DNA from: Tolumonas auensis DSM 9187
Lineage (GTDB): Bacteria > Pseudomonadota > Gammaproteobacteria > Enterobacterales > Aeromonadaceae
Assembly: GCF_000023065.1 (NCBI RefSeq)
Contig: NC_012691.1
Coordinates: 1,346,501-1,410,500 of the forward strand
Length of the DNA: 64,000 bases
Direction of reading: 5' to 3'
The translations under genes and the position numbers were made by a program. This document shows positions 25,927-46,621 of this stretch, piece by piece; position 1 is the first letter of the stretch; the number at the start of each line of letters is the position of its first letter. The notes under the pieces were generated by a model that made no database searches, had not been told where the DNA came from, and saw only the letters and a list, made by a program, of their open reading frames with translations.

Positions 25927-26074
25927 TTGCGTAGATTATTATCTAATAAAGCAAATAACTATTTTGTATCAACGATGTATGTAAAGGCGATCTTATAACA
26001 AAAATCTTCTATAGTAACAATTGACGCCTTCAATCCTGGTATTCAGGTTTTACTCGGGTAGTTCAAGGATAACT

Positions 26075-28219
26075 ATGACAATGGCTAACGGGCAACATGG
26101 TTCATTACTGGAATGTTTGCTGTTTATGTCACAGCACTATGGCATGGCTAACACGCGTGAGGCGCTGACTGCCGGTCTGCCATTAAAGGATGGCATGCTG
26201 ACACCAGAGTTGTTTCCCCGGGCCGCACATAGAGCTGGTTTTGTTGTTGATTATTTTGCCTCTTCCTTAGAAGTTATTCCGACCTTATTGCTACCGTGCA
26301 TTCTGTTAATGAAGGATGGCCGGGCTGCCGTTTTGATCTCTGTTGATAAAGATGCATCGCAAGCTGTTCTGTTTGTTCCGGTAGGAAGTGTTGGTCAGCA
26401 AACCATTCCTTTTACTGTTTTAGAAAATGAGTTTTCGGGGCACGGGTTTTATATTAAACGCCGTTTGCAGTTTGATGACCGGGCACCGGAAGTGCTGAAA
26501 CCCCGCGAAGGGCATTGGTTCTGGAGTACCTTGTTCGAGTCATTACCTATCTATAAAGACGTCCTGATCGCATCGATTCTGATTAATGTTTTTGCAGTTG
26601 CCAGTCCGATTTTTATCATGAATGTTTACGATAAAATCGTTCCGAATCTGGCATTTGATTCTCTCTGGGTGTTGGCGATCGGGGTTTCACTGATCTTTTC
26701 TTTTGATCTCATCATCCGGCAACTCAGAAGTTATTTCATTGATATAGCTGGAAAAAAATCTGATTTACTGCTTTCCGCCAAAATCTTCTCTAAGGTTCTT
26801 GGTATCCGTCTGGAGTCAAGACCGAATTCAACGGGTGCTTTCGCACGTCATTTGCACGAATTTGAATCTATCAGGGAGTTTTTTACTTCAGCCACAGTTT
26901 CTGCATTGATTGATTTGCCTTTCGCATTCCTGTTTCTGCTGGTTATCTGGATATTTGCCGGTGTGCTGGCTGTCGTCCCTCTGATCGCCATCATTATTAT
27001 GATTGTGTATAGCCTCTATATTCAGGCTCCTTTGCGCCATAGCATTGAAGAAAGCAGTCGTCTGGCCGCGCAGAAGTATGCCACTGTTATCGAAGCTCTT
27101 GCGGGGCTGGAGTCCGTCAAGATCCATAATGCGGAAGGCCAGTTCCAGCATCGCTGGGAGCAGGCTGTCAGCCATATGGCAAATGTTGGTATTGAGACCC
27201 GCAAGATCACCAATATGGTGGGTGGTCTTGCGAGTTATGTACAACAAATGACGATGGTTGCGATTGTTGTCCTTGGCGTATATGAAATCTCGGAAGGTAA
27301 TCTGTCGATGGGGGGGATGATTGCGGCTGTCATGCTTTCCGGGCGCGCGATTGGTCCATTGATCCAGCTGTCTGTTTTATCAACCCGCTACAATCAGGCC
27401 AAATCTGCCTTGCTTCTGCTCGAAAACATTATGCAAAGCCCGTCAGAAAGAGAAGATGACCGGCACTATCTTGATTATGACCGTTTATCCGGACGGATAG
27501 AACTGGACGATGTTTCGTTCAATTATCCGGATATTGAACAGGCCGCACTGAAACATGTAACGCTTAACATCCAGCCCGGAGAGAAAATAGCGATTATCGG
27601 CCGCATTGGTGCCGGGAAAACAACACTCGAAAAACTAATATTGGGTCTTTATAAGCCAATAGAAGGGGCCGTCCGTCTGGATGGCTTTGAACTGCCCCAG
27701 CTTCATCCTTCTACAGTGCGGAATAATATCGGGTGTGTTCCTCAGGATTTTTCATTGTTCTACGGCACTATCCGTCAGAATATCCAGCTCGGTCATCCTC
27801 ATGCGACAGATGCTCAGATTTTGCGTGCTGCGCAGCGGGCTGGTGTCAGCCAATTTACGAACCATGATCCTAATGGTCTGGAAAGGCAGGTCGGTGAAAG
27901 TGGCAGAAATTTATCCGGAGGGCAACGACAGTCAATTGCACTGGCTAGGGCTATGTTACTTGATCCGCCTATTCTTATTTTAGATGAACCAACCGCTAAC
28001 ATGGATAACCGTTCTGAAAGCATAGTAAAACGGGAATTAGCTAATTTACCCGCAGATACGACGATGCTTTTAATTACTCACAGAACCTCCATGCTGGATA
28101 TCGTGAACCGAATCATTGTGCTTGAGCAGGGGATGGTGGTTGCTGATGGCCCGCGGGATTTGGTATTGCAGCAGCTTAAAGAAGGTAAGGTACGGGTAAG
28201 AGAGAATAATGATGTCTAA
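26075..28219 (+). CDS. lapB: Type I secretion ATPase/permease, LapB-like
   Basis: This 714-residue inner-membrane ABC exporter has an N-terminal C39-peptidase-like domain (~1-125) without an evident catalytic Cys-His set, six membrane segments (~160-420) and a nucleotide-binding domain. Walker A is GRIGAGKT (509-516), the signature LSGGQRQS begins at residue 613, and Walker B ILILDEPT is near 635. The degenerate C39-like domain is typical of exporters of large RTX adhesins, where it binds substrate and does not cleave it. The ATG at 26075 with AAGGAT upstream is chosen over an upstream in-frame start. It is the first gene of a lap operon. Confidence 0.92.
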   Translation: MTMANGQHGSLLECLLFMSQHYGMANTREALTAGLPLKDGMLTPELFPRAAHRAGFVVDYFASSLEVIPTLLLPCILLMKDGRAAVLISVDKDASQAVLFVPVGSVGQQTIPFTVLENEFSGHGFYIKRRLQFDDRAPEVLKPREGHWFWSTLFESLPIYKDVLIASILINVFAVASPIFIMNVYDKIVPNLAFDSLWVLAIGVSLIFSFDLIIRQLRSYFIDIAGKKSDLLLSAKIFSKVLGIRLESRPNSTGAFARHLHEFESIREFFTSATVSALIDLPFAFLFLLVIWIFAGVLAVVPLIAIIIMIVYSLYIQAPLRHSIEESSRLAAQKYATVIEALAGLESVKIHNAEGQFQHRWEQAVSHMANVGIETRKITNMVGGLASYVQQMTMVAIVVLGVYEISEGNLSMGGMIAAVMLSGRAIGPLIQLSVLSTRYNQAKSALLLLENIMQSPSEREDDRHYLDYDRLSGRIELDDVSFNYPDIEQAALKHVTLNIQPGEKIAIIGRIGAGKTTLEKLILGLYKPIEGAVRLDGFELPQLHPSTVRNNIGCVPQDFSLFYGTIRQNIQLGHPHATDAQILRAAQRAGVSQFTNHDPNGLERQVGESGRNLSGGQRQSIALARAMLLDPPILILDEPTANMDNRSESIVKRELANLPADTTMLLITHRTSMLDIVNRIIVLEQGMVVADGPRDLVLQQLKEGKVRVRENNDV

Positions 28220-29597
28220 TTCCGAACTAAACCAGAAACAACTGGATCTGCTTGATGATGCCTCTGCCGCGGTTTTATTGACGACGCCTATTCGTGCGAA
28301 ATTGTTACTCTGGAGCTGTTTTCTGTTTTTCATTGTGGCATTCATCTGGGCTGCCTGGGCTGAACTGGACGAGGTAACAAGAGGAGATGGTAAAGTGATT
28401 CCCTCGAAACAGTTGCAGGTTATTCAGAATCTTGAAGGTGGGATTGTAAAAGAAATCTTTGCCCGGGAAGGGCAAATGGTCGAAGAAGGCCAGGAGTTGC
28501 TGCGTATTGATGATACCCGGTTCCGCTCTGATTTCGGCGAGAAGCAGCAGGAACTGATCAGTGTACAGGGTGATGTCGCCCGTTTAAGAGCAGAGATAGC
28601 CAGTATTTCTGTATCAAATGACACTTCACTTCCCTGGCGTGAACAGGCGGTGATCAATGAACAGCCCATTATATTTCCTGAAGGTTATGAAGCCATTTCT
28701 CCTGAAAATGTCGCCCGGCAAAAGAACGCACTTCAGGCAAACATCAATAATCTCAATAACCAGCTGGTCATTATGGGGCAGCAAATCGAACAGAAAGAGA
28801 ATGAAATTCTGGAAATTAACAGCAAAATCCGCACGTTAGGTCGTAGTGTCGGGTTGGCTGGCCGCGAAGTAGCAATTAATCGTCCATTGGTAAAAGAAGG
28901 TATTGTTTCACAGATCGATTTATTAAAAATGCAGCGTCAACTCAATGACATGCAAGGTGAGTTAGAAAATGCAAGATTATTGTTACCGAAACAGAATTCT
29001 TTGCTAAGAGAGTCTATCCTTAAACGTAAAGACGTCGCTCTTCAGTTCCGAGTGGATGCGCAAAAAGAGATGGAAGAGAAGCAGAGTCGTCTTTCTCAGT
29101 TAAATGAAGGGCAGATCGGATTGAAGGATCGGGTGTCCAGAACCAGTGTTACATCACCTGTGAAAGGGACGATAAAAACACTGAAAGTTAATACTGTTGG
29201 CGGTGTTGTTCAGCCAGGTATGGACATTGTCGAGATAGTTCCGACAGAAGATACCCTTCTGATTGAGGCAAAAGTATTACCTAAAGATATTGCGTTCTTA
29301 CGGCCCGGGCTGAAGGCAATGGTGAAGTTTACCGCCTATGATTTCACAATTTACGGAGGATTAGACGGAAAACTTGAACATATCAGTGCAGATTCAATTC
29401 AGGATGATAAAGGTAACTCTTTTTATCTTGTCCGGGTTCGTACTGATCGTAGTTTTTTAGGTAGTGACGCTGAACCGTTGCCCATTATTCCGGGGATGAT
29501 GGCAACTGTGGATATTGTTACAGGTAAAAAAAGTGTTCTTGAATATCTGATGAAACCTATTCTGCGTGCCAAACAATCAGCACTGCGAGAACGATGA
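28209..29597 (+). CDS. lapC: HlyD-family periplasmic adaptor, LapC-like
   Basis: This 462-residue membrane fusion protein has one N-terminal membrane segment (LLLWSCFLFFIVAFIWAAWA, ~37-56), a lipoyl half-motif (GKVIPSKQLQVIQNLEGGIVKEI), a long coiled-coil hairpin (~110-310) rich in Gln, Glu and Leu, and the second lipoyl half and beta-barrel (SPVKGTIKTLKVNTVGGVVQPGM). It links the LapB exporter to the TolC-like outer-membrane channel. It overlaps the lapB stop by 11 bases. Confidence 0.93.
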   Translation: MMSNSELNQKQLDLLDDASAAVLLTTPIRAKLLLWSCFLFFIVAFIWAAWAELDEVTRGDGKVIPSKQLQVIQNLEGGIVKEIFAREGQMVEEGQELLRIDDTRFRSDFGEKQQELISVQGDVARLRAEIASISVSNDTSLPWREQAVINEQPIIFPEGYEAISPENVARQKNALQANINNLNNQLVIMGQQIEQKENEILEINSKIRTLGRSVGLAGREVAINRPLVKEGIVSQIDLLKMQRQLNDMQGELENARLLLPKQNSLLRESILKRKDVALQFRVDAQKEMEEKQSRLSQLNEGQIGLKDRVSRTSVTSPVKGTIKTLKVNTVGGVVQPGMDIVEIVPTEDTLLIEAKVLPKDIAFLRPGLKAMVKFTAYDFTIYGGLDGKLEHISADSIQDDKGNSFYLVRVRTDRSFLGSDAEPLPIIPGMMATVDIVTGKKSVLEYLMKPILRAKQSALRER

Positions 29598-29618: not shown

Positions 29619-30920
29619 ATGGACAAAATATGTAAATTATCTGCGCTGGCCGTGTTTATCTGTTTGTTCACGAATACCGCAGGCGCTGCATCGTTAGAAT
29701 CGACGATAGCTCAATCGTTACTGGACAATCCGGAAGTAAAACAGGCGTATGATAACTATGTTACCAGAACGCATGTCGTTGGGCAGGCCGAAGCCGGTTA
29801 CTACCCTAAAGTTGATCTCTATGGTGGTATAGGGAAAGAGAAATATGACAATGATGATGTTTCGGATGACGGACACACATTAACCCGTAAAGAAATGGGC
29901 GTTTCTCTGACACAGATGTTGTTTGATGGTTTTGACACCAGCAGCAATGTAGACAGAACAAAAGCTGAAGCAATGGCGCAAAAACATGCATTGTTTGCTC
30001 AGGCAAATAATACAGCTCTGCGTGTGACTGAAGTGTATCTGAACGTATTACGCTCTGAAGAAATATATCAGCTTTCAAAAGAGAATCTGGCTACCCATCA
30101 GGCAATCATGGCTGATATCGGTAAAAGAACAGATTCAGGTGTTGGTTCCACTGCAGACTATATGCAGATCAAAGGTCGTGTAGCCCGTGCTCAGGCTAAT
30201 TTATCAGCCGCAGAAAATAATATGCTTGATGCCAAGGCTGAATTTTTCCGTGTGACTAACACTGAACCAATGGGCCTCACTCAGCCTGTCGCCAATGGTA
30301 AAGCACCGGCATCACTGTCTGAAGCAGTAGCATTAGCTCAGAAAGCACATCCTACTCTGCTATCTGCAGATCAGGATCTGGAAGCGACCCGTTTCCAATA
30401 CGAAGCCTCTAAAGCAAACTTTTATCCTAAGCTCTCTCTGGAAGCTGATCAGACCTTTTATGAAGATATTGATGGCCGGGAAGGAAGCATCGATAGAGGT
30501 AAAGTCATGCTGATGGCTCGTTATAACCTGTTCAATGGTGGTGCAGATACTGCGCAAAAACGGGCTACCGCATCTCAAATGGCTGAAGCAAAAGATGTAA
30601 AAATGAATGCTTCCCGTCAGGTGCAGGAAGGTTTAAGCCTGGCCTGGAATGCAAGAGACTCGTTGCTGAAACAAAAAGAGTTCATGCAACAACATGTGCT
30701 GGCCAGTTATGACACCGTAATGGCGTACCGGAAACAGTTCTTGTTAGGCTCCCGCTCACTGCTGGATGTGCTGAATACAGAAAATGAACTGTTTGAAGCA
30801 CGTCAGAGCGCAGTAAATACAGATTACGATGAACTGCATGCTGAGTACCGGATCCTGAATGCTACCGGCCAGTTACTGGATAGTGTCAGCTTTAAAGCGC
30901 CGGTTGAATGGCAGCAATAA
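29619..30920 (+). CDS. lapE: TolC-family outer-membrane channel of the adhesin secretion system
   Basis: This 433-residue protein has a signal peptide (LSALAVFICLFTNTAGAA) and two tandem TolC-type halves, each with long helical stretches and DNPEVKQA / HPTLLSADQ starts. The motif RKQFLLGSRSLLDVLNTENELFEARQSAVNTDYD is the conserved C-terminal helix pattern of adhesin-secretion TolC proteins. It forms the outer-membrane conduit, and in the LapA model the retention module of the adhesin stays plugged inside it. It starts 21 bp after lapC. Confidence 0.92.
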   Translation: MDKICKLSALAVFICLFTNTAGAASLESTIAQSLLDNPEVKQAYDNYVTRTHVVGQAEAGYYPKVDLYGGIGKEKYDNDDVSDDGHTLTRKEMGVSLTQMLFDGFDTSSNVDRTKAEAMAQKHALFAQANNTALRVTEVYLNVLRSEEIYQLSKENLATHQAIMADIGKRTDSGVGSTADYMQIKGRVARAQANLSAAENNMLDAKAEFFRVTNTEPMGLTQPVANGKAPASLSEAVALAQKAHPTLLSADQDLEATRFQYEASKANFYPKLSLEADQTFYEDIDGREGSIDRGKVMLMARYNLFNGGADTAQKRATASQMAEAKDVKMNASRQVQEGLSLAWNARDSLLKQKEFMQQHVLASYDTVMAYRKQFLLGSRSLLDVLNTENELFEARQSAVNTDYDELHAEYRILNATGQLLDSVSFKAPVEWQQ

Positions 30921-30930
30921 TTAACTGGTT

Positions 30931-31656
30931 ATGAAGTTTCTGACCATGCTTTGGTCTGATTTCTACGGGGGACGATATGCTCTGTTATTTCTGAGTGTAT
31001 TGTTCCTCAGTGGAAGCTCGTCGTTTTTACTGGCAGATGCACTTGATATAAAAGAGCGTCAGCTGGCAGATAAAGTGCAGGCCAAATATGGTGCGAGAGC
31101 TGCGCGCAGGGTTATCGACTGGCGATTATTAATTCAGCGCGCTCATGCAGAAAAATGGGATAAGCAACAGGCTTTGGAAGCAACCAACCGCTTTTTCAAC
31201 CAGCAGATATTTATTGATGATATCAAGCTGTGGGGGCAAAACGATTATTGGGCATCACCAGTTGAATTTCTGGCGGTAGGTGGTGGTGATTGTGAAGATT
31301 TCAGTATTGCTAAATATTTCACATTACGTGAAATGGGTATTACTGATGAAAGTTTGCGGCTTATTTATGTTAAGGCTATTCATTACAATCAATTTCATAT
31401 GGTAGTGGCTAATTATGCCACGCCAGCTTCTATGCCAGTGATATTGGATAATCTGGACCCTGTACTGAAACCAGCTAATTTACGAACAGATTTAGTGCCT
31501 GTATATAGTTTTAACGGTAGTCACTTGTGGTTGATGAAAGCTAAAGGTCAGGGGCAACTGGCAGGATCATCAGATCGGCTAAGTCTATGGTCAGGATTAC
31601 AAAAACGGCTCACTGCCCAGAATTTTAACCGGCCAATTTTAAATTTGGACAATTAA
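30931..31656 (+). CDS. lapG: Periplasmic transglutaminase-like cysteine protease, LapG
   Basis: This 241-residue BTLCP-family protease (PF06035 type) has an N-terminal hydrophobic export segment (~15-36). The Cys-His-Asp triad is visible: Cys121 in GGGDCEDFSIAKY, His156 in NQFHMVVANY and Asp173 in VILDNLDP. Acidic residues around the Cys fit the calcium-binding site known in LapG. It would cut the retention modules of the two adhesins encoded downstream unless held by LapD. It starts 10 bp after lapE and ends 2 bp before lapD. Confidence 0.93.
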   Translation: MKFLTMLWSDFYGGRYALLFLSVLFLSGSSSFLLADALDIKERQLADKVQAKYGARAARRVIDWRLLIQRAHAEKWDKQQALEATNRFFNQQIFIDDIKLWGQNDYWASPVEFLAVGGGDCEDFSIAKYFTLREMGITDESLRLIYVKAIHYNQFHMVVANYATPASMPVILDNLDPVLKPANLRTDLVPVYSFNGSHLWLMKAKGQGQLAGSSDRLSLWSGLQKRLTAQNFNRPILNLDN

Positions 31657-31658
31657 CC

Positions 31659-33581
31659 ATGACTCTCTATAAGCAAATTCTCGCTTTTGTGATATGTCTT
31701 TTTGCTGGCCTATTGATCATTGCTTATGCAGTGCAGTTTCAGTCAACCAGAGATTATCTGGCCGAACAGCAACGGATCTCCGTTATTAATACTGCCAATT
31801 CGGTCGGGCTGGCTCTGACGCCATATTTAGAGACCGGCGATAAAATTGGTGCTGAATCGGTAATTAATGCCGCTTTTGATGGTGGTTTTTATCAAAAAAT
31901 ACACCTTGACCTTCTGGCGTCCAAAGAAACAATTGAAAAAGTAAACAAAGTGGAAATTGAAGGTGTTCCCCGCTGGTTTACCGAGCTTAATTTTTTCAAG
32001 AGTGAAACTTATGACTCTGTTTTAACCTCCGGATGGTTGCAGCTTGGCAAATTAGAAGTAACAGGACATCCGGGAGATGCTTACTTTCAATTCTGGCGGG
32101 CAATGTCCAATCTGTTTTTTGCATATATCGCGTGTTTTGTGGTTGTTTCAATATTAGTGATTGCTGCATTACGTATTTTACTGCGGCCATTAGATCTTAT
32201 TCGCCGACAGGCAGTCGAAATTGAGAAGCATCATTTTAATAAATCAATTCCATTACCCAAAACGCTGGAACTCAAACAGGTTGTTCAGTCAATTAATACG
32301 CTTACGGTTAAATTAGCCAAACAGTTTAAAGAAGAGGCCGTTGCAGCGGATTCTTTACGGGAGCGCGCATTCAGGGATGCTGTTTCGGGGCTTGGTAACC
32401 GTGCGTATTTTATGGGGCAGATTAATGCGTGGATTGCGGAACATGGTACCGGTGGTGTGATGCTGATTGCCGTGGACGCGTTAGACGAAATATACCGAAT
32501 TGATGGATATAGCGCGCGTGACCAGATGGTGAAACAGGTTGCCAATATTCTGCACGCTAAATTAGCCACCTTTGGTGGCGCTGCTATTTCGCGGATAAGT
32601 GCGACAGAATATGCGGTTCTTTTGCCAGGACTGACCAGCGAAGAGTTACTGGATATTGCGCATGTGCTGAACGAGGCTATCGCTGATCTTATTGTGAATC
32701 CGCTGGAGATTGATTCGGCGTTTTCTGTAATCGGTATTGCGGTCAGAAATGAGGATGAGGATTTATCTGCGCTGCTCACGAAAGCAGATAGTGCACTACG
32801 TCGGGCCAGAAATGAACGCTTAGGCGCGGTAACGATAGAACATGCGGAAAAAGCCGATACTTTCGGGCGGTTAGCCTGGAAAGAAATTATTCTTGAAGCG
32901 CTGGAACATGATCAGTTTGATTTTCGTATCCAGCCAGTCACGATGATCACCGGGGAAATGAGTCTACCTGCTGAATTATTCACGGGGATCAGATATCAGG
33001 GACAGCATTTCAGCGCGGCGCAATTCATTTCTGCTGTTGAACTGTTTAAGTTGGGTGAGAAATTAGATCGCTATGTTCTTGATCACGCTGTCTCTGTGCT
33101 TCAGGCAAATCCGGGCATGAGGATGTCTGTTAACTTAACAATCAGTAGTATTTCATCTCTTCCATTTTTGAGTTATCTGAATGAGTTTTTTATAAAAAAC
33201 AGTGCAATATCCAATCGTATCGCTATCGAAATACCGGAAAATGCAATCATTCATCACCGTGAGTCGGTTAAATCTCTGAGTGAAATCTGCAGGCAATATA
33301 AGGTCATGTGGGGGATAGACCAATTCGGTCGTCACTTCCAGTCTCTGGAGTATCTGACCGAGCTGACACCTGTATATGTGAAGGTTGACCAGGGATATAT
33401 GAGCATTATCAGTAAAGATGAAAATGCGCAGAGTGTTCTGGCAGCCGTGTGCAGAACAGCACATAACGCAGGGGCAATAACAGTTGTCACCCGGGTTGAA
33501 AATGAGCAACAAATAGATTTGATTAATCAACTGTTCGTCGATGGATATCAGGGCATAGTGCAGCCAGCCCGTGAAATCTGA
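31659..33581 (+). CDS. lapD: Inner-membrane c-di-GMP receptor LapD
   Basis: This 640-residue protein has a first membrane segment (~6-25), a periplasmic LapD/MoxY-type domain (~26-150), a second membrane segment (~152-172), HAMP (~173-225), a degenerate GGDEF domain and a degenerate EAL domain. The GGDEF position reads SATEY and the EAL position reads AELF. The DDFG metal motif reads DQFGRHF. Loss of both catalytic motifs marks a receptor and not an enzyme. When c-di-GMP is bound to the EAL domain, the periplasmic domain sequesters LapG. It closes the lapBCEGD run and is followed by a terminator. Confidence 0.93.
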   Translation: MTLYKQILAFVICLFAGLLIIAYAVQFQSTRDYLAEQQRISVINTANSVGLALTPYLETGDKIGAESVINAAFDGGFYQKIHLDLLASKETIEKVNKVEIEGVPRWFTELNFFKSETYDSVLTSGWLQLGKLEVTGHPGDAYFQFWRAMSNLFFAYIACFVVVSILVIAALRILLRPLDLIRRQAVEIEKHHFNKSIPLPKTLELKQVVQSINTLTVKLAKQFKEEAVAADSLRERAFRDAVSGLGNRAYFMGQINAWIAEHGTGGVMLIAVDALDEIYRIDGYSARDQMVKQVANILHAKLATFGGAAISRISATEYAVLLPGLTSEELLDIAHVLNEAIADLIVNPLEIDSAFSVIGIAVRNEDEDLSALLTKADSALRRARNERLGAVTIEHAEKADTFGRLAWKEIILEALEHDQFDFRIQPVTMITGEMSLPAELFTGIRYQGQHFSAAQFISAVELFKLGEKLDRYVLDHAVSVLQANPGMRMSVNLTISSISSLPFLSYLNEFFIKNSAISNRIAIEIPENAIIHHRESVKSLSEICRQYKVMWGIDQFGRHFQSLEYLTELTPVYVKVDQGYMSIISKDENAQSVLAAVCRTAHNAGAITVVTRVENEQQIDLINQLFVDGYQGIVQPAREI

Positions 33582-33648: not shown

Positions 33649-33780
33649 ATTCGATTTTCTGCATCAATTATCTTCAATCGGCGCACTCTTCGCGCATTCT
33701 TTGCAACGTTCATTACCCACCCGGTAACTAAACTTAGTTTAACAAAGTTGTAACTATTATTTACGCTGTTGGGGTGGGTT
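33649..33780 (+). repeat. Adhesin upstream leader, copy 1
   Basis: This 132-bp noncoding leader lies directly before the first adhesin ATG and has a same-length copy at 38893-39024 before the second. By eye about 86% of positions are identical, and the last ~40 bases are fully identical, including a G-rich ribosome-binding stretch GGGGTGGG. It probably carries the promoter and 5' untranslated region of both adhesin genes. Confidence 0.8.
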
Positions 33781-36700
33781 ATGAACAATCAAACAATTAC
33801 TGAAGTATCCCGTGTGACGTTTATCTCCGGTGCCGCAAAAGTTCGCACGCCTGATGGCGAGTTACACGATTTAAAAGTCGGGGATATTTTGCAGCCGGGC
33901 ACACAAGTCATACTGGCCGATGCCTCTGTTTTCGTTGTTGAAGCAACATCATCTGAAGTTCCCGGCGCCACTGCGCCTGAGGCTGTCGCGTCGACAGAAC
34001 TTCCTGCAGATCAACAACCATCCATGCCTGCCATGGGGGCTGCCGCTGCCGCCGGCGATGATGTGCTGGCTCAGATCAATCAGATGCAGCAAGCAATTCT
34101 GGCTGGTGATGATCCTACTCAGGCATTTGAAGCCGCTGCTGCCGGTGTGGCCGCTAATGCGGGCGGAAGAGGACCTGGCAGTGGTAACAGCGGGTTTATT
34201 GCTGTTGATCGCGTCGGTAATGCCACTATTGCAGCCGCCGGATATGACACTGCTGCTCGGGGCGCAGCACCGATAGCTCATTTTGATGATCCTGCGGCGC
34301 TGATGGAAATCGTAAATCGTCCGACAAGAGCTGCTCCGGATACCAATACCGTTAAGGAAGACACACCGGCAACAGGTAATGTGCTGGCTAACGACAGTGA
34401 TCCGGATGATGCTTTATCAGTCGCTAACTTTGTTATTAATGGACAAAATTTCTTAGCAGGTAGCACTGCCTCGTTAGATGGTATCGGTACATTAATAATT
34501 AATGCAGATGGCGGTTATACATTTACTCCTGCATCTGATTGGAATGGGGAAGTTTCCCAAGTTACTTACACCACTAATACCGGTGCTAGTTCAACGCTAG
34601 ATATTAATGTTACACCGGTGAATGATGACCCTGATGCGGTGAACGATGATCCTGATGCCAATCCTGACGCGTTAACCACCAAAGAAGACGTTCCGCTGAC
34701 TATCCAGCCCGCGATTTTGCTGGCGAATGATACGGATGTGGATGGCGATCTACTGAACATTCTCAGTGTGCAGGGGGCCGTGAATGGCAGTGTGTCACTG
34801 GTCAATGGCAATGTGGTGTTCACGCCGGACGCAGACTACCACGGTCCTGCCAGCTTCACCTACACCATCAGCGATGGTCAGGGTGGTACAGATACGGCGA
34901 TGGTCAGTATTGATGTCACACCGGTGAATGATGACCCTGATGCGGTGAACGATGATCCTGACGCGAATCCCGATGCGTTAACCACCAAAGAAGACGTTCC
35001 GCTGACCATCCAGCCCGCGATTTTGCTGGCGAATGATACGGATGTGGATGGCGATCCACTGAACATTCTCAGTGTGCAGGGGGCCGTGAATGGCAGTGTG
35101 TCACTGGTCAATGGCAATGTGGTGTTCACGCCGGACGCAGACTACCACGGTCCTGCCAGCTTCACCTACACCATCAGCGATGGTCAGGGTGGTACAGATA
35201 CGGCGATGGTCAGTATTGATGTCACACCGGTGAATGATGACCCTGATGCGGTGAACGATGATCCTGACGCGAATCCCGATGCGTTAACCACCAAAGAAGA
35301 CGTTCCGCTGACCATCCAGCCCGCGATTTTGCTGGCGAATGATACGGATGTGGATGGCGATCCACTGAACATTCTCAGTGTGCAGGGGGCCGTGAATGGC
35401 AGTGTGTCACTGGTCAATGGCAATGTGGTGTTCACGCCGGACGCAGACTACCACGGTCCTGCCAGCTTCACCTACACCATCAGCGATGGTCAGGGTGGTA
35501 CAGATACGGCGATGGTCAGTATTGATGTCACACCGGTGAATGATGACCCTGATGCGGTGAACGATGATCCTGACGCGAATCCCGATGCGTTAACCACCAA
35601 AGAAGACGTTCCGCTGACCATCCAGCCCGCGATTTTACTGGCGAATGATACGGATATTGATGGTGATTTGTTAAGTATTCTCAGTGTGCAGGGGGCCGTG
35701 AATGGCAGTGTGTCACTGGTCAATGGCAATGTGGTGTTCACGCCGGACGCAGATTACCACGGTCCTGCCAGCTTCACCTACACCATCAGTGATGACCACG
35801 GCGGTACAGATACGGCGACAGTCAGTATTGATGTCATCCCGGTGAATGATGACCCTGATGCTAATCCCGATGCGTTAACCACTAAAGAAGACGTTCCGCT
35901 GACCATCCAGCCCGCGATTTTACTGGCGAATGATACGGATGTTGATGGTGATTTGTTAAGTATTCTCAGTGTGCAGGGGGCCGTGAATGGCAGTGTGTCA
36001 CTGGTCAATGGCAATGTGGTGTTCACGCCGGACGCAGATTACCACGGTCCTGCCAGCTTCACCTACACCATCAGCGATGACCACGGCGGTACAGATACGG
36101 CGACGGTCAGTATTGATGTCACATCGGTGAATGACCCACCAGTACTGGATCTGGACGGCGACGATTCCACAGCCTCAGGGGCTGCTTACAATACTCACTA
36201 TGCTGCAGGAGGCACAGCGATATCTATTGGTGACATCAATGACATCGTAATCACAGATCCCGATGTATCCGACGATATCACCAGTGCCACTATTACGCTG
36301 ACCAACCCGCAGTCAGGCGACGTACTGACGGTAGGCACTTTACCGAGCGGTATTGCCTACAGCATCAGCCCGGATGGCTGGGTGGTCACGCTGACCGGTA
36401 GTGCCAGCCGGGATGCTTATGAAATGGCGATTGCGGCAGTCACTTTCTCCAATACACTGGATACGTTGTCATCAACCAATCGCACAATTGATGTTGTGGT
36501 TAATGATGGCGATATAGATTCCAATCATGCAATAACAACGATTGACATAAACCCATATGTTACTGTCAACATTGTTCAGGATCTGATGAGTGACGATCAG
36601 ACCAGTCAGGTGACCTTTACCTTCAGTGAAGCTGTGACTGATTTTACACAGACTGACCTGACAGTTACCGGCGGTACAATTTCCATGCCGGTAGATAGCG

Positions 36701-38166
36701 GTGATGGTATCCATTGGACTGCTATCTTTACACCAACTCCTGGTTATTCCGGTGCAGCGGAAGTGACAGTAGAAGATATGAGCTACTACGACCTGGCGGG
36801 TAATGCGGGTAGCAGTGGTTCAGATACTGTTTATATTTCCCCGATTTCTTATCAGGATGCAGATACTGGCTGGTTGATGAATGATGACTCTACTGCAAAT
36901 TCTTTTGATATGAAGGTTAGGGGAGGGAATATTACTATCGCTAAAGGCGGTACAATTTACTGGGATATATTGGTGAATGATACCAATAACGATGCAACGC
37001 TTACATTTGAGCTTGATAAGTTTGACCCCAATATGACGGTAACTTATGAAAAATTATATAGTGCTGACGGTAATATTATCTTCCGGGTTTATGTAACTGC
37101 TACAGCAGAAACAATCTTGGCTCCGGATGATCAGTTTTATATCAATGTAATAAATGCCAGTGGTAGAGCCATGGTGCTTAACTCTGATGAATTTGTCCGG
37201 CCACATAACAACTACAACGTTGACTATTCTGATCCTGATATCTTCGACAGCGGTACTATTGTACCAAACAACACGACCGCTGATCAGGATTGGCTAAGCA
37301 ACTATTCACAATACCCGGCAACTGACCCTGCTAACAGTATTATCAACGGCGGCGAATTCACTTCCGGCATCGTTCTACAGACCGGTGTAACACAGTCCTA
37401 CTATGGTGGTAATGATATCGTCTACGGCACAACCGGACATGACACATTGCTCGGTGGCGACGGTAATGATTTTATCTCCGGTCGGGCAGGAAACGATATG
37501 TTGTATGGTGGTGCAGGTAACGACACTTTAGTGGGTGGTTATGGCATCGATAAGCTATATGGAGATGATGGCAACGACATTCTGCTGGGTGGCCCAAGTA
37601 ATGACATCCTGGATGGTGGTAGCGGTATTGATACTGCGATGTACAGCGATGCGACTTCCGGGGTTACTGTGAATCTGAGCACTGGTACAGCTACAGGCGG
37701 GGATGGTACCGATATTTTCTCAAATATCGAAAATGTCACTGGCTCTAATTTCGGCGATACCCTGACAGGTAATGACAGTGTCAATGTGCTTGATGGTGGT
37801 ATCGGTGCTGATACGCTTACCGGCGGTCTGGGTAATGACATCCTGACGGGTGGCGATGGTGCGGATATCTTCAAATGGACATCAGCAGATATCACATCAT
37901 CTGGTGCTCCGTTTACAGATACCATCACCGATTTCTCCATGGCGCAGGGTGATTTACTGGATTTAACCGACGTACTGACAGGTGAACCGGTCAATGATCT
38001 GAGCAGTTATCTGAGTTTTGATACTTCAGGTAGTGATATGGTGATCTCTGTTCATGCATCCGGAGATGTGAACATTACTGACATGACTATTGTCATTCAG
38101 AATCCGACAGATAGTTTGAATGATTTACAAAACTATCTGCAGAATAGTACAGGGGTTATCCACTAA
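33781..38166 (+). CDS. LapA-like retention-module RTX adhesin 1
   Basis: This 1461-residue cell-surface adhesin shows, in order: a retention module (~1-165, beginning NNQTITEVSRVTFISGAAKVRTPDG); a candidate LapG site AAAAG (118-122) in an Ala/Gly-rich linker; one divergent and five near-identical ~102-residue cadherin/VCBS-like repeats (~183-783); two further Ig-like or cadherin-like domains; an unassigned ~135-residue domain (~1022-1156) also present in adhesin 2; RTX calcium-binding nonapeptides (GGxGNDxxx pattern, ~1205-1360); and a VC_A0849-type C-terminal secretion signal starting GADIFKWTSADI. There is no Sec signal; export is by LapBCE. The ATG at 33781 is chosen because the upstream TTG would place the ribosome-binding sequence inside the gene. 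Confidence 0.92.
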   Translation: MNNQTITEVSRVTFISGAAKVRTPDGELHDLKVGDILQPGTQVILADASVFVVEATSSEVPGATAPEAVASTELPADQQPSMPAMGAAAAAGDDVLAQINQMQQAILAGDDPTQAFEAAAAGVAANAGGRGPGSGNSGFIAVDRVGNATIAAAGYDTAARGAAPIAHFDDPAALMEIVNRPTRAAPDTNTVKEDTPATGNVLANDSDPDDALSVANFVINGQNFLAGSTASLDGIGTLIINADGGYTFTPASDWNGEVSQVTYTTNTGASSTLDINVTPVNDDPDAVNDDPDANPDALTTKEDVPLTIQPAILLANDTDVDGDLLNILSVQGAVNGSVSLVNGNVVFTPDADYHGPASFTYTISDGQGGTDTAMVSIDVTPVNDDPDAVNDDPDANPDALTTKEDVPLTIQPAILLANDTDVDGDPLNILSVQGAVNGSVSLVNGNVVFTPDADYHGPASFTYTISDGQGGTDTAMVSIDVTPVNDDPDAVNDDPDANPDALTTKEDVPLTIQPAILLANDTDVDGDPLNILSVQGAVNGSVSLVNGNVVFTPDADYHGPASFTYTISDGQGGTDTAMVSIDVTPVNDDPDAVNDDPDANPDALTTKEDVPLTIQPAILLANDTDIDGDLLSILSVQGAVNGSVSLVNGNVVFTPDADYHGPASFTYTISDDHGGTDTATVSIDVIPVNDDPDANPDALTTKEDVPLTIQPAILLANDTDVDGDLLSILSVQGAVNGSVSLVNGNVVFTPDADYHGPASFTYTISDDHGGTDTATVSIDVTSVNDPPVLDLDGDDSTASGAAYNTHYAAGGTAISIGDINDIVITDPDVSDDITSATITLTNPQSGDVLTVGTLPSGIAYSISPDGWVVTLTGSASRDAYEMAIAAVTFSNTLDTLSSTNRTIDVVVNDGDIDSNHAITTIDINPYVTVNIVQDLMSDDQTSQVTFTFSEAVTDFTQTDLTVTGGTISMPVDSGDGIHWTAIFTPTPGYSGAAEVTVEDMSYYDLAGNAGSSGSDTVYISPISYQDADTGWLMNDDSTANSFDMKVRGGNITIAKGGTIYWDILVNDTNNDATLTFELDKFDPNMTVTYEKLYSADGNIIFRVYVTATAETILAPDDQFYINVINASGRAMVLNSDEFVRPHNNYNVDYSDPDIFDSGTIVPNNTTADQDWLSNYSQYPATDPANSIINGGEFTSGIVLQTGVTQSYYGGNDIVYGTTGHDTLLGGDGNDFISGRAGNDMLYGGAGNDTLVGGYGIDKLYGDDGNDILLGGPSNDILDGGSGIDTAMYSDATSGVTVNLSTGTATGGDGTDIFSNIENVTGSNFGDTLTGNDSVNVLDGGIGADTLTGGLGNDILTGGDGADIFKWTSADITSSGAPFTDTITDFSMAQGDLLDLTDVLTGEPVNDLSSYLSFDTSGSDMVISVHASGDVNITDMTIVIQNPTDSLNDLQNYLQNSTGVIH
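34621..36129 (+). repeat. Five tandem ~306-bp cadherin-like repeats in adhesin 1
   Basis: Units start at 34621, 34927, 35233, 35539 and 35845. The first four are 306 bp; the fifth is 285 bp because seven codons at its start are missing. Units 2 and 3 are almost identical at the DNA level, which indicates recent duplication. Each encodes one extender domain with the DTDVDGD calcium-binding pattern. Confidence 0.93.
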
Positions 38167-38176
38167 AACAACGGGT

Positions 38177-38203
38177 GGGAGCAGCGTGTCTGCTCCCTGT
38201 TTA
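38177..38203 (+). terminator. Terminator after adhesin 1
   Basis: GGGAGCA-GCGTGTC-TGCTCCC followed by TGTTTATT, between the adhesin stop and the small acidic ORF. Confidence 0.75.
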
Positions 38204-38226
38204 TTCTTAACAGAGTAATTACGCAG

Positions 38227-38841: not shown

Positions 38842-38861
38842 TTATTTTTGTGTCTGTTGAG

Positions 38862-38890
38862 GGGCTTGCTCAGAAATAAGTAAGCCCTTT
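38862..38890 (+). terminator. Terminator after the small acidic ORF
   Basis: GGGCTTGCT-CAGAAAT-AAGTAAGCCC (imperfect stem) followed by TTTTC, ahead of the second adhesin leader. Confidence 0.7.
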
Positions 38891-38892
38891 TC

Positions 38893-39024
38893 ATTCGATT
38901 TTCTGCATTCATTATCTTCAATTGGCGCACATTTTGCGCATTCTTTTCAACGCTTGTAATCCATTTGGTAACTAAACTTAACTCAACAAAGTTGTAACTA
39001 TTATTTACGCTGTTGGGGTGGGTT
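38893..39024 (+). repeat. Adhesin upstream leader, copy 2
   Basis: Same length and order as the leader at 33649-33780, with about 18 differences concentrated in the distal part and a fully identical proximal ~40 bases up to the ATG. Confidence 0.8.
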
Positions 39025-42000
39025 ATGAACAATCAAACAATTACTGAAGTATCCCGTGTGACGTTTATCTCCGGTGCCGCAAAAGTCCGCACACCTGATG
39101 GCGAGTTGCATGATTTAAAAGTCGGGGATATTTTGCAACCGGGCACACAAGTCATACTGGCCGATGCCTCTATTTTTGTTGTTGAAGCAACATCATCTGA
39201 AGTTCCCGGCGCAGCGGCGCCTGAGGCTGTCGCGTCGACAGAACTTCCTGCTGATCAACAACCATCCATGCCTGGCATGGGAGCTGCCGCTGGCGATGAT
39301 GTGCTGGCTCAGATCAATCAGCTGCAGCAAGCAATTCTGGCTGGTGATGATCCGACTCAGGCATTTGAAGCTGCTGCTGCCGGTGTGGCCGCTAATGCCG
39401 GCGGAAGAGGGCCTGGCAGTGGTAACAGCGGGTTTATTGCTGTTGATCGCGTCGGTAATGCCACTATTGCAGCCGCCGGATATGAAACAGCTGCACAGCA
39501 TGCGGCACCACAGGCTCACTTTGATGAGCCTGCAGCGTTTATTCCAAGGGGTGATACGACGGCGCCTCTCGCTCCAACAGTCATAATTACCGATGATGTG
39601 AATAATGATGGTTTCCTTTCTAATGCAGAATTAGGGAATGCAACAACAGTTGATACACGTGTGAATTTACCTCCTGATGCTGTAGTTGGCGATACCCTGA
39701 TCATCACTGATGGTATTACCTCGCAGACGTTAGTGCTGACGCCAGATGATATTGCTGCAGGCTTCTACGATACAACATTTGCCAGACCTGCGGAGGGTGA
39801 CACTCTGACTGTGACCGCTACAGTTACTGATGCTGCTGGTAATATGTCTGATCCGGGTAGTGACAGCGCTATCCTGGACACCACCGCGACCGCGGCCCCG
39901 ACGGTCACCATTACTACGGATGGAGACAACAACGGCCGTATCAGTCTGGCCGAACAGGGCAGTGCCACCACGGATGCGGTACGTATCGGCATTCCGGTTA
40001 CTGCGGTGGCGGGCAATACACTGAACATGACCGACGGCATCACTCCGCAGATGCACGTGCTGACTGCAGCCGATATTACCAATGGCTACTATGACACCAC
40101 GTTTGCAAAACCGGCGGAAGGCGGGACATTGACGGTGACCGCTACGGTTACTGATATGGCCGGTAACACCTCCTTGCCGGGCAGTGACAGCGCGATCCTG
40201 GACATCACCGCGACCGCGGCCCCGACGGTCACCATTACTACGGATGGAGACAACAACGGCCGTATCAGTCTGGCCGAACAGGGCAGTGCCACCACGGATG
40301 CGGTACGCATCGGCATTCCGGTTACTGCGGTGGCGGGCGATACACTGAACATGACCGACGGCATCACTCCGCAGACGCACGTGCTGACTGCAGCCGATAT
40401 CACCAATGGCTACTATGACACCACGTTTGCAAAACCGGCGGAAGGCGGGACATTGACGGTGACCGCTACGGTCACTGATATGGCCGGTAACACCTCCCTG
40501 CCGGGCAGTGACTATGCGGTGCTGGACACCCTGGAACCTCCACGTCCGGTGGTCACCATTGTGGATGACAACAACCCGGACGACCATCTGCTGAATGAGA
40601 ATGAACTGGGCACAGACCATGTCCAGATCAGTGTGGACATTGATGAGGGCGAACTGGCGAACGGCGGCTATGTAACGCTGGAGATCACCAGCGGGGAAAG
40701 CCGGACGGTCGAGCTGTATCTGGCGAATGCCGGAGACGACGTCCTGACCAGCAGAACCCCGGGCGATACCCATGTCTATGCCTACGATGCGGCCACCGGC
40801 ATCATCACCTTTACCGAGCTGACACCGGCAGAAGGCGGTACGGTACAGGTGGAAGCCACCCAGACCGACCTGGCGGGCAATGAATCCCTGCCGGGCAGTG
40901 ACTATGCGGTGCTGGACACCCTGGAACCTCCACGTCCGGTGGTCACCATTGTGGATGACAACAACCCGGACGACCATCTGCTGAATGAGAATGAACTGGG
41001 CACAGACCATGTCCAGATCAGTGTGGACATTGATGAGGGCGAACTGGCGAACGGCGGCTATGTAACGCTGGAGATCACCAGCGGGGAAAGCCGGACGGTC
41101 GAGCTGTACCTGGCGAATGCCGGAGACGACGTCCTGACCAGCAGAACCCCGGGCGATACCCATGTCTATGCCTACGATGCGGCCACCGGCATCATCACCT
41201 TTACCGAGCTGACACCGGCAGAAGGCGGTACGGTACAGGTGGAAGCCACCCAGACTGATCTGGCGGGCAATGAATCCCTGCCGGGCAGTGACTATGCGGT
41301 GCTGGACACCCTGGAACCTCCACGTCCGCTGGTCACCATTGTGGATGACAACAACCCGGACGACCATCTGCTGAATGAGAATGAACTGGGCACAGACCAT
41401 GTCCAGATCAGTGTGGACATTAATGAGGGCGAACTGGCGAACGGCGGCTATGTAACGCTGGAGATCATCAGCGGGGAAAGCCGGACGGTCGAGCTGTACC
41501 TGGCGAATGCCGGAGACGACGTCCTGACCAGCAGAACCCCGGGCGATACCCATGTCTATGCCTACGATGCGGCCACCGGCATCATCACCTTTACCGAGCT
41601 GACACCGGCAGAAGGCGGTACGGTACAGGTGGAAGCCACCCAGACCGACCTGGCGGGCAATGAATCCCTGCCGGGCAGTGACTATGCGGTGCTGGACACC
41701 CTGGAACCTCCACGTCCGCTGGTCACCATTGTGGATGACAACAACCCGGACGACCATCTGCTGAATGAGAATGAACTGGGCACAGACCATGTCCAGATCA
41801 GTGTGGACATTAATGAGGGCGAACTGGCGAACGGCGGCTATGTAACGCTGGAGATCATCAGCGGGGAAAGCCGGACGGTCGAGCTGTACCTGGCGAATGC
41901 CGGAGACGACGTCCTGACCAGCAGAACCCCGGGCGATACCCATGTCTATGCCTACGATGCGGCCACCGGCATCATCACCTTTACCGAGCTGACACCGGCA

Positions 42001-42549
42001 GAAGGCGGTACGGTACAGGTGGAAGCCACCCAGACCGACCTGGCGGGCAATGAATCCCTGCCGGGCAGTGACTATGCGGTGCTGGACACCCTGGAACCTC
42101 CACGTCCGGTGGTCACCATTGTGGATGACAACAACCCGGACGACCATCTGCTGAATGAGAATGAACTGGGCACAGACCATGTCCAGATCAGTGTGGACAT
42201 TGATGAGGGCGAACTGGCGAACGGCGGCTATGTAACGCTGGAGATCACCAGCGGGGAAAGCCGGACGGTCGAGCTGTATCTGGCGAATGCCGGAGACGAC
42301 GTCCTGACCAGCAGAACCCCGGGCGATACCCATGTCTATGCCTACGATGCGGCCACCGGCATCATCACCTTTACCGAGCTGACACCGGCAGAAGGCGGTA
42401 CGGTACAGGTGGAAGCCACCCAGACCGACCTGGCGGGCAATGAATCCCTGCCGGGCAGTGACTATGCGGTGCTGGACACCCTGGAACCTCCACGTCCGCT
42501 GGTCACCATTGTGGATGACAACAACCCGGGACGACCATCTGCTGAATGA
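39025..42549 (+). CDS. LapA-like adhesin 2, N-terminal part, interrupted by a frameshift
   Basis: As read, this frame encodes 1174 residues: a retention module nearly identical to that of adhesin 1 (candidate LapG site AAAAG at 116-120), one divergent and two near-identical 108-residue Ig-like repeats, then five full 130-residue repeats and the start of a sixth. It ends after NNPGRPSAE because GGG at 42528-42530 replaces the GG found at the same place in every other repeat copy. Translation therefore lacks the RTX region and secretion signal. With one G removed the gene would run to 46621 and encode about 2531 residues. Either the gene is disrupted or the base is a sequencing error in a repeat. 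Confidence 0.85.
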   Translation: MNNQTITEVSRVTFISGAAKVRTPDGELHDLKVGDILQPGTQVILADASIFVVEATSSEVPGAAAPEAVASTELPADQQPSMPGMGAAAGDDVLAQINQLQQAILAGDDPTQAFEAAAAGVAANAGGRGPGSGNSGFIAVDRVGNATIAAAGYETAAQHAAPQAHFDEPAAFIPRGDTTAPLAPTVIITDDVNNDGFLSNAELGNATTVDTRVNLPPDAVVGDTLIITDGITSQTLVLTPDDIAAGFYDTTFARPAEGDTLTVTATVTDAAGNMSDPGSDSAILDTTATAAPTVTITTDGDNNGRISLAEQGSATTDAVRIGIPVTAVAGNTLNMTDGITPQMHVLTAADITNGYYDTTFAKPAEGGTLTVTATVTDMAGNTSLPGSDSAILDITATAAPTVTITTDGDNNGRISLAEQGSATTDAVRIGIPVTAVAGDTLNMTDGITPQTHVLTAADITNGYYDTTFAKPAEGGTLTVTATVTDMAGNTSLPGSDYAVLDTLEPPRPVVTIVDDNNPDDHLLNENELGTDHVQISVDIDEGELANGGYVTLEITSGESRTVELYLANAGDDVLTSRTPGDTHVYAYDAATGIITFTELTPAEGGTVQVEATQTDLAGNESLPGSDYAVLDTLEPPRPVVTIVDDNNPDDHLLNENELGTDHVQISVDIDEGELANGGYVTLEITSGESRTVELYLANAGDDVLTSRTPGDTHVYAYDAATGIITFTELTPAEGGTVQVEATQTDLAGNESLPGSDYAVLDTLEPPRPLVTIVDDNNPDDHLLNENELGTDHVQISVDINEGELANGGYVTLEIISGESRTVELYLANAGDDVLTSRTPGDTHVYAYDAATGIITFTELTPAEGGTVQVEATQTDLAGNESLPGSDYAVLDTLEPPRPLVTIVDDNNPDDHLLNENELGTDHVQISVDINEGELANGGYVTLEIISGESRTVELYLANAGDDVLTSRTPGDTHVYAYDAATGIITFTELTPAEGGTVQVEATQTDLAGNESLPGSDYAVLDTLEPPRPVVTIVDDNNPDDHLLNENELGTDHVQISVDIDEGELANGGYVTLEITSGESRTVELYLANAGDDVLTSRTPGDTHVYAYDAATGIITFTELTPAEGGTVQVEATQTDLAGNESLPGSDYAVLDTLEPPRPLVTIVDDNNPGRPSAE
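39559..40530 (+). repeat. Three tandem 324-bp Ig-like repeats in adhesin 2
   Basis: Two almost identical 324-bp units begin near 39883 and 40207, preceded by a divergent unit from about 39559. Each encodes 108 residues with the pattern APTVTITTDGDNNGRIS at the start and TDMAGNTSLPGSD near the end, a bacterial Ig-like fold. The following 390-bp repeats share the end motif and are longer relatives. Confidence 0.88.
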
Positions 42550-45500
42550 GAATGAACTGGGCACAGACCATGTCCAGATCAGTGTGGACATTGATGAGGG
42601 CGAACTGGCGAACGGCGGCTATGTAACGCTGGAGATCATCAGCGGGGAAAGCCGGACGGTCGAGCTGTACCTGGCGAATGCCGGAGACGACGTCCTGACC
42701 AGCAGAACCCCGGGCGATACCCATGTCTATGCCTACGATGCGGCCACCGGCATCATCACCTTTACCGAGCTGACACCGGCAGAAGGCGGTACGGTACAGG
42801 TGGAAGCCACCCAGACCGACCTGGCGGGCAATGAATCCCTGCCGGGCAGTGACTATGCGGTGCTGGACACCCTGGAACCTCCACGTCCGGTGGTCACCAT
42901 TGTGGATGACAACAACCCGGACGACCATCTGCTGAATGAGAATGAACTGGGCACAGACCATGTCCAGATCAGTGTGGACATTAATGAGGGCGAACTGGCG
43001 AACGGCGGCTATGTAACGCTGGAGATCATCAGCGGGGAAAGCCGGACGGTCGAGCTGTACCTGGCGAATGCCGGAGACGACGTCCTGACCAGCAGAACCC
43101 CGGGCGATACCCATGTCTATGCCTACGATGCGGCCACCGGCATCATCACCTTTACCGAGCTGACACCGGCAGAAGGCGGTACGGTACAGGTGGAAGCCAC
43201 CCAGACTGATCTGGCGGGCAATGAATCCCTGCCGGGCAGTGACTATGCGGTGCTGGACACCCTGGAACCTCCACGTCCGGTGGTCACCATTGTGGATGAC
43301 AACAACCCGGACGACCATCTGCTGAATGAGAATGAACTGGGCACAGACCATGTCCAGATCAGTGTGGACATTGATGAGGGCGAACTGGCGAACGGCGGCT
43401 ATGTAACGCTGGAGATCACCAGCGGGGAAAGCCGGACGGTCGAGCTGTATCTGGCGAATGCCGGAGACGACGTCCTGACCAGCAGAACCCCGGGCGATAC
43501 CCATGTCTATGCCTACGATGCGGCCACCGGCATCATCACCTTTACCGAGCTGACACCGGCAGAAGGCGGTACGGTACAGGTGGAAGCCACCCAGACCGAC
43601 CTGGCGGGCAATGAATCCCTGCCGGGCAGTGACTATGCGGTGCTGGACACCCTGGAACCTCCACGTCCGGTGGTCACCATTGTGGATGACAACAACCCGG
43701 ACGACCATCTGCTGAATGAGAATGAACTGGGCACAGACCATGTCCAGATCAGTGTGGACATTGATGAGGGCGAACTGGCGAACGGCGGCTATGTAACGCT
43801 GGAGATCATCAGCGGGGAAAGCCGGACGGTCGAGCTGTACCTGGCGAATGCCGGAGACGACGTCCTGACCAGCAGAACCCCGGGCGATACCCATGTCTAT
43901 GCCTACGATGCGGCCACCGGCATCATCACCTTTACCGAGCTGACACCGGCAGAAGGCGGTACGGTACAGGTGGAAGCCACCCAGACTGATCTGGCGGGCA
44001 ATGAATCCCTGCCGGGCAGTGACTATGCGGTGCTGGACACCCTGGAACCTCCACGTCCGGTGGTCACCATTGTGGATGACAACAACCCGGACGACCATCT
44101 GCTGAATGAGAATGAACTGGGCACAGACCATGTCCAGATCAGTGTGGACATTGATGAGGGCGAACTGGCGAACGGCGGCTATGTAACGCTGGAGATCATC
44201 AGCGGGGAAAGCCGGACGGTCGAGCTGTACCTGGCGAATGCCGGAGACGACGTCCTGACCAGCAGAACCCCGGGCGATACCCATGTCTATGCCTACGATG
44301 CGGCCACCGGCATCATCACCTTTACCGAGCTGACACCGGCAGAAGGCGGTACGGTACAGGTGGAAGCCACCCAAACCGACCTGGCGGGCAATGAATCCCT
44401 GCCGGGCAGTGACTATGCGGTGCTGGACACCCTGGAACCTCCACGTCCGCTGGTCACCATTGTGGATGACAACAACCCGGACGACCATCTGCTGAATGAG
44501 AATGAACTGGGCACAGACCATGTCCAGATCAGTGTGGACATTGATGAGGGCGAACTGGCGAACGGCGGCTATGTAACGCTGGAGATCATCAGCGGGGAAA
44601 GCCGGACGGTCGAGCTGTACCTGGCGAATGCCGGAGACGACGTCCTGACCAGCAGAACCCCGGGCGATACCCATGTCTATGCCTACGATGCGGCCACCGG
44701 CATCATCACCTTTACCGAGCTGACACCGGCAGAAGGCGGTACGGTACAGGTGGAAGCCACCCAGACTGATCTGGCGGGCAATGAATCCCTGCCGGGCAGT
44801 GACTATGCGGTGCTGGACACCCTGGAACCTCCACGTCCGGTGGTCACCATTGTGGATGACAACAACCCGGACGACCATCTGCTGAATGAGAATGAACTGG
44901 GCACAGACCATGTCCAGATCAGTGTGGACATTGATGAGGGCGAACTGGCGAACGGCGGCTATGTAACGCTGGAGATCATCAGCGGGGAAAGCCGGACGGT
45001 CGAGCTGTACCTGGCGAATGCCGGAGACGACGTCCTGACCAGCAGAACCCCGGGCGATACCCATGTCTATGCCTACGATGCGGCCACCGGCATCATCACC
45101 TTTACCGAGCTGACACCGGCAGAAGGCGGTACGGTACAGGTGGAAGCCACCCAGACCGACCTGGCGGGCAATGAATCCCTGCCGGGCAGTGACTATGCGG
45201 TGCTGGACACCCTGGAACCTCCACGTCCGGTGGTCACCATTGTGGATGACAGCAACAACGATACTTTATTGAGTAGTACGGAATTGGGGGATGACCATGT
45301 CCAAATCAGTGTAGACGTTGATGAGGACGAGTTGGCGAATGGTGGCTTTGTAACGCTGGAGATCACCAGCGGGGAAAGCCGGACGGTCGAGCTGTACCTG
45401 GCGAATGCCGGAGACGACGTCCTGACCAGCAGAACCCCGGGCGATACCCATGTCTATGCCTACGATGCGGTAACCGGCCTAATCACCTTTACCGAGCTGG

Positions 45501-45594
45501 AACCCACTGACGGGAATACCGTCCGGGTGGATGCTACCCAGACTGATCTGGCGGGCAATGAGTCCCTGCCGGCCAGTGATTATGCGGTTCTGCC
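40531..45594 (+). repeat. Thirteen tandem 390-bp repeats in adhesin 2
   Basis: Units begin at 40531, 40921, 41311, 41701, 42091, 42481, 42872, 43262, 43652, 44042, 44432, 44822 and 45212. The first twelve are nearly identical; the thirteenth is clearly diverged. The sixth is 391 bp because of the extra G. Units differ at a few positions: RPVV or RPLV, IDEGE or INEGE, EITS or EIIS, plus silent changes. These are shuffled among copies in a mosaic way. Each encodes a 130-residue Ig-like extender domain. Confidence 0.95.
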
Positions 45595-46621
45595 ACCGAT
45601 TACCTATGCTTCGGGAACTGGCTGGCAGATGAATTATAATAAAACTGACAATTCTTTCGACATGAGAGTTAAATCTCCTGGAACAGCGACCGCAACGCTT
45701 TATGCAGGAGCAACAATTCATTGGGATATCATCGTTCAGGACTCAGATCATAATGCGGCTATATCTGTATTAGCTGACGCTGAGATGCCTGCTTCGGCCA
45801 GTTTTCATGTTGATGAATTATATGCTGCAGATGGTCAGACTATATTCCGTGTCTATATGACAACCAGCGAAACGATTCAGTTATCTGAACCACAGGGCTT
45901 CGGAATTGACATACAGGTTGTGGATTCTGATGGGTCTGCATATCTAATCAATTCGAATGAATATATAGCACCACATGATAATTATAAGGAAGACTATTCT
46001 GAAACATTCAATCTAACTGATGTTCTAACTGGACACGACCAGGAATGGCTTAGCCCGGATACTGATGGTGGTGAGTTCACTAGCTTAACTCCTACTCCTG
46101 GTTCGGGAGTAACAGATCTGCACTATGGCGGAGGGAATGATGCCGTATATGGCACCGTCTACAACGATGGGATCTTTGGTGATGCGGGCAATGATTTCAT
46201 TGATGGGCGGGCTGGTGATGATACTCTCCATGGAGGAAGTGGGGAAGATGTGTTATTAGGTGGATATGGTACAGATACTCTTATCGGTGACTTGGGTAAT
46301 GATATTCTGACGGGTGGCGATGGTGCGGATATTTTCACATGGACGTCGGCCGATATCGGTTCAAGCGATACCATTACTGATTTCTCTATAGCTCAGCATG
46401 ATATGCTGGATTTAACTGACGTACTGACAAATGAACCGGCAAATGATCTGACTAATTATCTGAGTTTCGGTACCAACACGGATGGTGATGTTCTGGTCAA
46501 TGTTCATGCATCCGGAGACGTGAACATTACAGACATGACCATTGTCATTCAGAATCCGACAGATACTTTGACTGAGTTACAAACCTACCTGCAGAACGGA
46601 ACTGGCGTTATCCATAACTAA
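42531..46621 (+). pseudogene. Adhesin 2, C-terminal part beyond the frameshift
   Basis: This is the continuation of adhesin 2 in the next reading frame, with no start codon or ribosome-binding site of its own; the open frame reaches back to 42440 only by overlap. It contains the remainder of repeat 6, repeats 7-12, the diverged repeat 13, the unassigned pre-RTX domain shared with adhesin 1 (45599 to about 46020), RTX nonapeptides (about 46120-46330) and the type I secretion signal (GADIFTWTSADIGSSDTITDF, ending in the same pattern as adhesin 1). Without correction of the frame it would not be made. The intact frame over 4 kb argues that any break is very recent, or is an artefact. Confidence 0.8.

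Follow-up and report, generated by a model that had tools for sequence, protein, structure and literature searches.

A one-base insertion within a near-identical repeat splits a predicted LapA-type adhesin gene in the published Tolumonas auensis assembly

LapA of Pseudomonas fluorescens and AhLap of Aeromonas hydrophila have an N-terminal retention module, a series of repeats and a C-terminal RTX region with a type I secretion signal, and the published description of these systems places a type I transporter and LapG/LapD genes beside them (PMC12077191). Other giant adhesin genes, the BAP genes of Acinetobacter baumannii, have been found split into two or more ORFs. Both mutation and sequencing error have been proposed as the cause, and the same report holds that sequencing error cannot account for every one of them (PMC4647330). 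Tolumonas auensis is a toluene-producing member of the Aeromonadaceae, and the chromosome of strain TA 4T measures 3,471,292 bp (PMC3236046). A literature search on Tolumonas and adhesins returned nothing on the locus described here, judged from titles and abstract openings.

As in the LapA and AhLap systems, a type I transporter and LapG/LapD-like genes adjoin two giant adhesin genes in T. auensis. All of them lie on the plus strand of the window, the whole stretch of 64,000 nucleotides that we analyzed (contig NC_012691.1, positions 1,346,501 to 1,410,500). The cluster contains an ABC transporter of the LssB subfamily (26021..28219; TIGR03375, 963.3 bits, cut-off 693.1; also PF00005 and PF00664), an HlyD-type membrane fusion protein (28209..29597; TIGR01843, 430.9 bits, cut-off 208.65) and a TolC-like outer membrane efflux protein (29619..30920; PF02321, 163.5 bits, cut-off 22). 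These are followed by a LapG-like periplasmic protease of the BTLCP type (30931..31656; PF06035, 41.7 bits, cut-off 27) and a LapD-like c-di-GMP receptor (31659..33581; PF16448, 137 bits, cut-off 25). Unlike their counterparts in the LapA systems, both of these proteins fall under the NCBIfam equivalog cut-offs (LapG, 218.2 of 320; LapD, 319.5 of 1020).

Adhesin 1 (33781..38166) is intact. A single frame carries the retention module (retention_LapA, NF033682, 83.1 against a cut-off of 50), RTX repeats and the type I secretion target (T1SS_VCA0849, 42.1 against 17.6). We set its start at ATG 33781 in preference to the TTG at 33769 chosen by ORF prediction, and likewise placed the start of adhesin 2 at ATG 39025 instead of TTG 39013. 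The two genes align at 91.5% identity in their 5' ends, with at least 81 upstream bases included (600 aligned positions), and at 78.4% in their 3' ends (417 positions); we therefore take them to be tandem paralogues. In the stretch 38000-39100, a promoter scan found two promoter-like sites where 2.9 were expected and thus gave no signal. The same stretch has four terminator-like sites, where 0.9 were expected, and one of these directly follows adhesin 1 (38177-38197).

A 204-aa protein without a Pfam or NCBIfam match follows adhesin 1 (38227-38841, plus strand). By tblastn, relatives with 33-67% identity (E 1e-24 or better) lie directly after an intact retention-module adhesin in all five Tolumonas-genus loci examined (L026 8844-9416; L027 10106-9501; L028 8500-9096; L050 5689-6285; L051 10259-10711). 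In genus g2, the same search gave a weak match after the adhesin of G083 (E 7e-5) and still weaker ones in G023 and G084. It gave none in G072 (two loci), G074, G012 or G006. Nor does a relative follow adhesin 2 in the interval up to 46760, where an opposite-strand gene comes next. The protein may belong to an unnamed accessory family of LapA-type adhesins.

Adhesin 2 has the same parts as its paralogue, distributed over two frames. The first (39025..42549) encodes 1,174 amino acids comprising the retention module (NF033682, 84.0 against 50) and the repeats up to the sixth copy, with no type I target. The second (42383..46621) overlaps it at 42383-42549 and holds the remaining repeats, the RTX region (PF00353, 45.4 against 23) and the secretion target (TIGR03661, 35.3 against 17.6). 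This division of domains agrees with the first-pass annotation, which had described an N-terminal fragment, unsecreted if the break is real, and a following 4-kb frame with the RTX region and secretion signal. Its further statement that the second frame has no start needs a small correction: ATG codons occur at 42440, 42464 and 42515, GTG codons at 42458, 42584 and 42800, and others lie between 42383 and 42900. No further stop interrupts the second frame over about 4 kb past the break, about 1 kb of which lies outside the repeats, and the frame is without signs of decay. Retention module and secretion target thus share one frame in adhesin 1 and not in adhesin 2, which departs in this respect from LapA and AhLap. 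Judged by its domains and neighbors, adhesin 2 is a further T. auensis repeat adhesin of the LapA type, with type I secretion predicted, and its frame is broken in the published assembly.

The break falls in a tandem array with a 390-bp unit (40495-45592; 13.1 copies, 5.1 kb). When the array is divided in codon phase, twelve of the copies (40549..45229; 4,681 bp) are near-identical, and copy 13, from 45230, diverges. Copies 1-5 and 7-12 are each 390 bp long, and their 55 pairs have a mean identity of 99.2%. Copy 6 (42499..42889) has 391 bp. As the first-pass annotation had noticed, its additional base is a G: the letters at 42528..42530 read GGG, where the 11 other copies read GG. The window has a single instance of the word AACCCGGGACG, at 42523-42533, and 11 instances of AACCCGGACG, which keep the 390-bp register on both sides of copy 6. 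The first frame ends at the TGA at 42547..42549, again as that annotation had it, and past copy 6 the reading phase has shifted from 1 to 2.

Differences among the 12 copies are confined to eight variable columns, seven SNPs and the one indel. By codon position, three of the SNPs are nonsynonymous and four synonymous (worked by hand). In six of the SNP columns each allele is present in at least three copies, and this mosaic suggests exchange between copies. The remaining SNP, one of the synonymous ones, is private to copy 10. Because the insertion is one of just two private differences in the array, it should be either very recent or not real; that is, it would postdate the last exchange touching that part of copy 6, or be absent from the organism.

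Two other features of this region deserve mention. A second tandem unit of 324 bp (2.2 copies, 39806-40530) precedes the 390-bp array. When array DNA was searched against 40 other genomes, no near-identical match was found. The search reported three weaker matches in G002 (96-100 bp, 74-76% identity) and stretches of 48 bp in G019 (85%) and G016 (83%). The three in G002 are also spaced 324 bp apart, and the 390-bp unit may have arisen from a 324-bp one by lengthening. A scan of the repeat against a wider contig collection, from which records of the organism's own genome were possibly excluded, confirmed no relative. Long open frames also run opposite the array on the minus strand (39730-42591, 953 aa; 42503-45064, 853 aa), probably as a side effect of the recurring codon pattern.

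What, then, is the extra G? Most likely, though by a small margin and at about an even chance, it is an error in the Sanger/454 consensus; adhesin 2 would then form one open frame in the organism. The genome report describes 5.2x Sanger and 24.1x 454 coverage, its account of the reads mentioning no Illumina data, with Newbler fragments joined by phrap in a hybrid assembly; gaps were closed and repeats resolved with finishing reads and shatter libraries (PMC3236046). This history favors an error, as do 12 copies at 99% identity with exact repeats of 703, 583 and 459 bp. In such an array a single read is not easily assigned to its position. The longest of these repeats is about the length of one Sanger read. 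The suspicion of a sequencing or assembly error raised in the first-pass annotation is therefore well founded. The change itself also points this way: it adds a single G to a short run and is seen in one copy, in contrast to six of the seven SNP columns, whose alleles are shared among copies, and the frame beyond it is undamaged, with RTX and secretion target above their cut-offs. Split giant adhesins for which error and mutation are the recorded alternatives provide a precedent (PMC4647330). On this reading we infer that the organism itself lacks the extra base.

Other observations weaken the case for a consensus error. The stated error rate after finishing is below 1 in 100,000 (PMC3236046), and the array, with just one other private difference, is not littered with errors. 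Errors of 454 sequencing typically fall in long homopolymers, and three G in place of two is not of that type. The report on the BAP genes denies that all such splits are sequencing errors (PMC4647330). As an internal control for indels, we aligned the rRNA copies of the same assembly (11 alignments: 23S from eight operons and 16S from three), leaving out the masked parts of the five of eight operons that are partly N-masked. Over 19,606 aligned bases there were nine mismatches and no gap bases; two of the 11 alignments compare the reference with itself, and without them 15,171 bases remain, again with no gap. The control is imperfect, since rRNA copies are flanked by unique sequence and their assembly differs from that of the array. 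A single indel over the 4,681 bp of the array, set beside zero in the 15,171 bp of rRNA, fits both error and mutation.

The absence of indels from the rRNA speaks for the rival reading, that the insertion is real and recent. It would then be a new null allele of adhesin 2 in the sequenced culture, yielding an unsecreted N-terminal fragment while adhesin 1 continues to use the adjacent type I and LapG/LapD-like machinery. We hold this reading more tentatively, at somewhat below even odds. With adhesin 1 intact, the cell might tolerate losing adhesin 2, and broken genes have precedents both in this genome, for which 42 pseudogenes were counted (PMC3236046), and in the split BAP genes (PMC4647330). 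The first-pass annotation proposed in addition that the cell would depend on adhesin 1 and that gene conversion from neighboring copies might repair the break; the scattered SNP alleles shared by the copies are in keeping with such exchange. Weighing against a real allele, the break affects one copy alone, the rest of the second frame is undecayed, and neither an independent read nor a sister strain supports it: the genomes searched contained no independent copy of the insertion site.

Related genomes show how often such adhesins appear interrupted. Within the genus, we found 14 retention-module matches in 8 of 11 genomes. Six share an uninterrupted frame with a matching C-terminus (adhesin 1 itself, G002:C2, G005:C5, two in G003 and G009:C11), and four are cut by a contig end (G009:C22, G010:C167 and the ends in G003 and G002:C1). 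The other four appear broken within a contig: adhesin 2; G009:C14, with a frame change between module and repeats; G007:C217, from an assembly of about 410 contigs; and G006:C5, with at least two frame changes within the repeats, judged by eye. Of the 75 genomes from the family, 68 carry a match. In the 14 of them that are assembled into no more than three contigs we counted 35 matches and kept 31, setting aside three in G012 that are weak (E >1e-6) and one in G003 that lies at the end of a contig. Modules in one open frame number 28 of these 31, with products of 992 to 6,110 aa; eight of the 28 frames were read to their ends and the other 20 judged by frame length. Two of the eight, in G074 and G012, lack the GGxGxD motif.

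The three modules of the 31 that appear broken are adhesin 2 and two of the four in G072. The two in G072 were judged by eye, on the frames that overlap or come after them, and one of the two is a weak module match (32% identity). Together with G009:C14 and G006:C5 in the genus, the three broken modules lend weight to a real null allele. Some of the breaks in other genomes may likewise be errors. At L049 (G006:C5) and L098 (G072), successive frames begin with an identical or nearly identical out-of-frame stretch. The break at these two loci seems to lie in several repeat copies, unlike the single-copy break in adhesin 2, and could reflect a systematic sequencing error or the spread of a break between copies.

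We also considered a reversible switch, in which recombination between copies turns adhesin 2 off and on and the break marks one of its states. The mosaic SNP alleles are what copy exchange would give. However, the insertion site contains no long simple-sequence or homopolymer tract, only three G where other copies have two, and a single genome in a single state has been seen, which makes such a switch very improbable. Its fuller form is a longer shot still: the near-identical, in-frame copies would let the cell drop its second LapA-type adhesin and later recover it, with the paralogue keeping up basal adhesion.

The least probable explanation, that ribosomes shift by +1 within the 42383-42549 overlap or that the second frame is translated by itself and released as an unanchored adhesin, draws on the overlap and on the start codons inside the second frame, but the shift site occurs in 1 of 12 copies and so is not conserved, we recognized no known slip motif at the break, and Shine-Dalgarno matches upstream of the candidate starts (at most four bases in 42383-42900), while compatible with internal initiation, do not discriminate, as the likely real starts at 33781 and 39025 also score four.

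Whether a consensus error or a mutation, the break in adhesin 2 is of the same kind as those in the split BAP genes and is ordinary for large repeat adhesins. Like a split BAP gene, adhesin 2 is a giant Ig-like repeat adhesin lying in separate ORFs; unlike our single genome, the BAP work compared many strains (PMC4647330). In finished Sanger/454 genomes, single-base breaks within near-identical adhesin repeats should not be equated with gene loss unless reads support them. If the insertion is real, one of the two tandem adhesins of T. auensis would have a null allele of recent origin, providing a natural contrast for the role of each paralogue.
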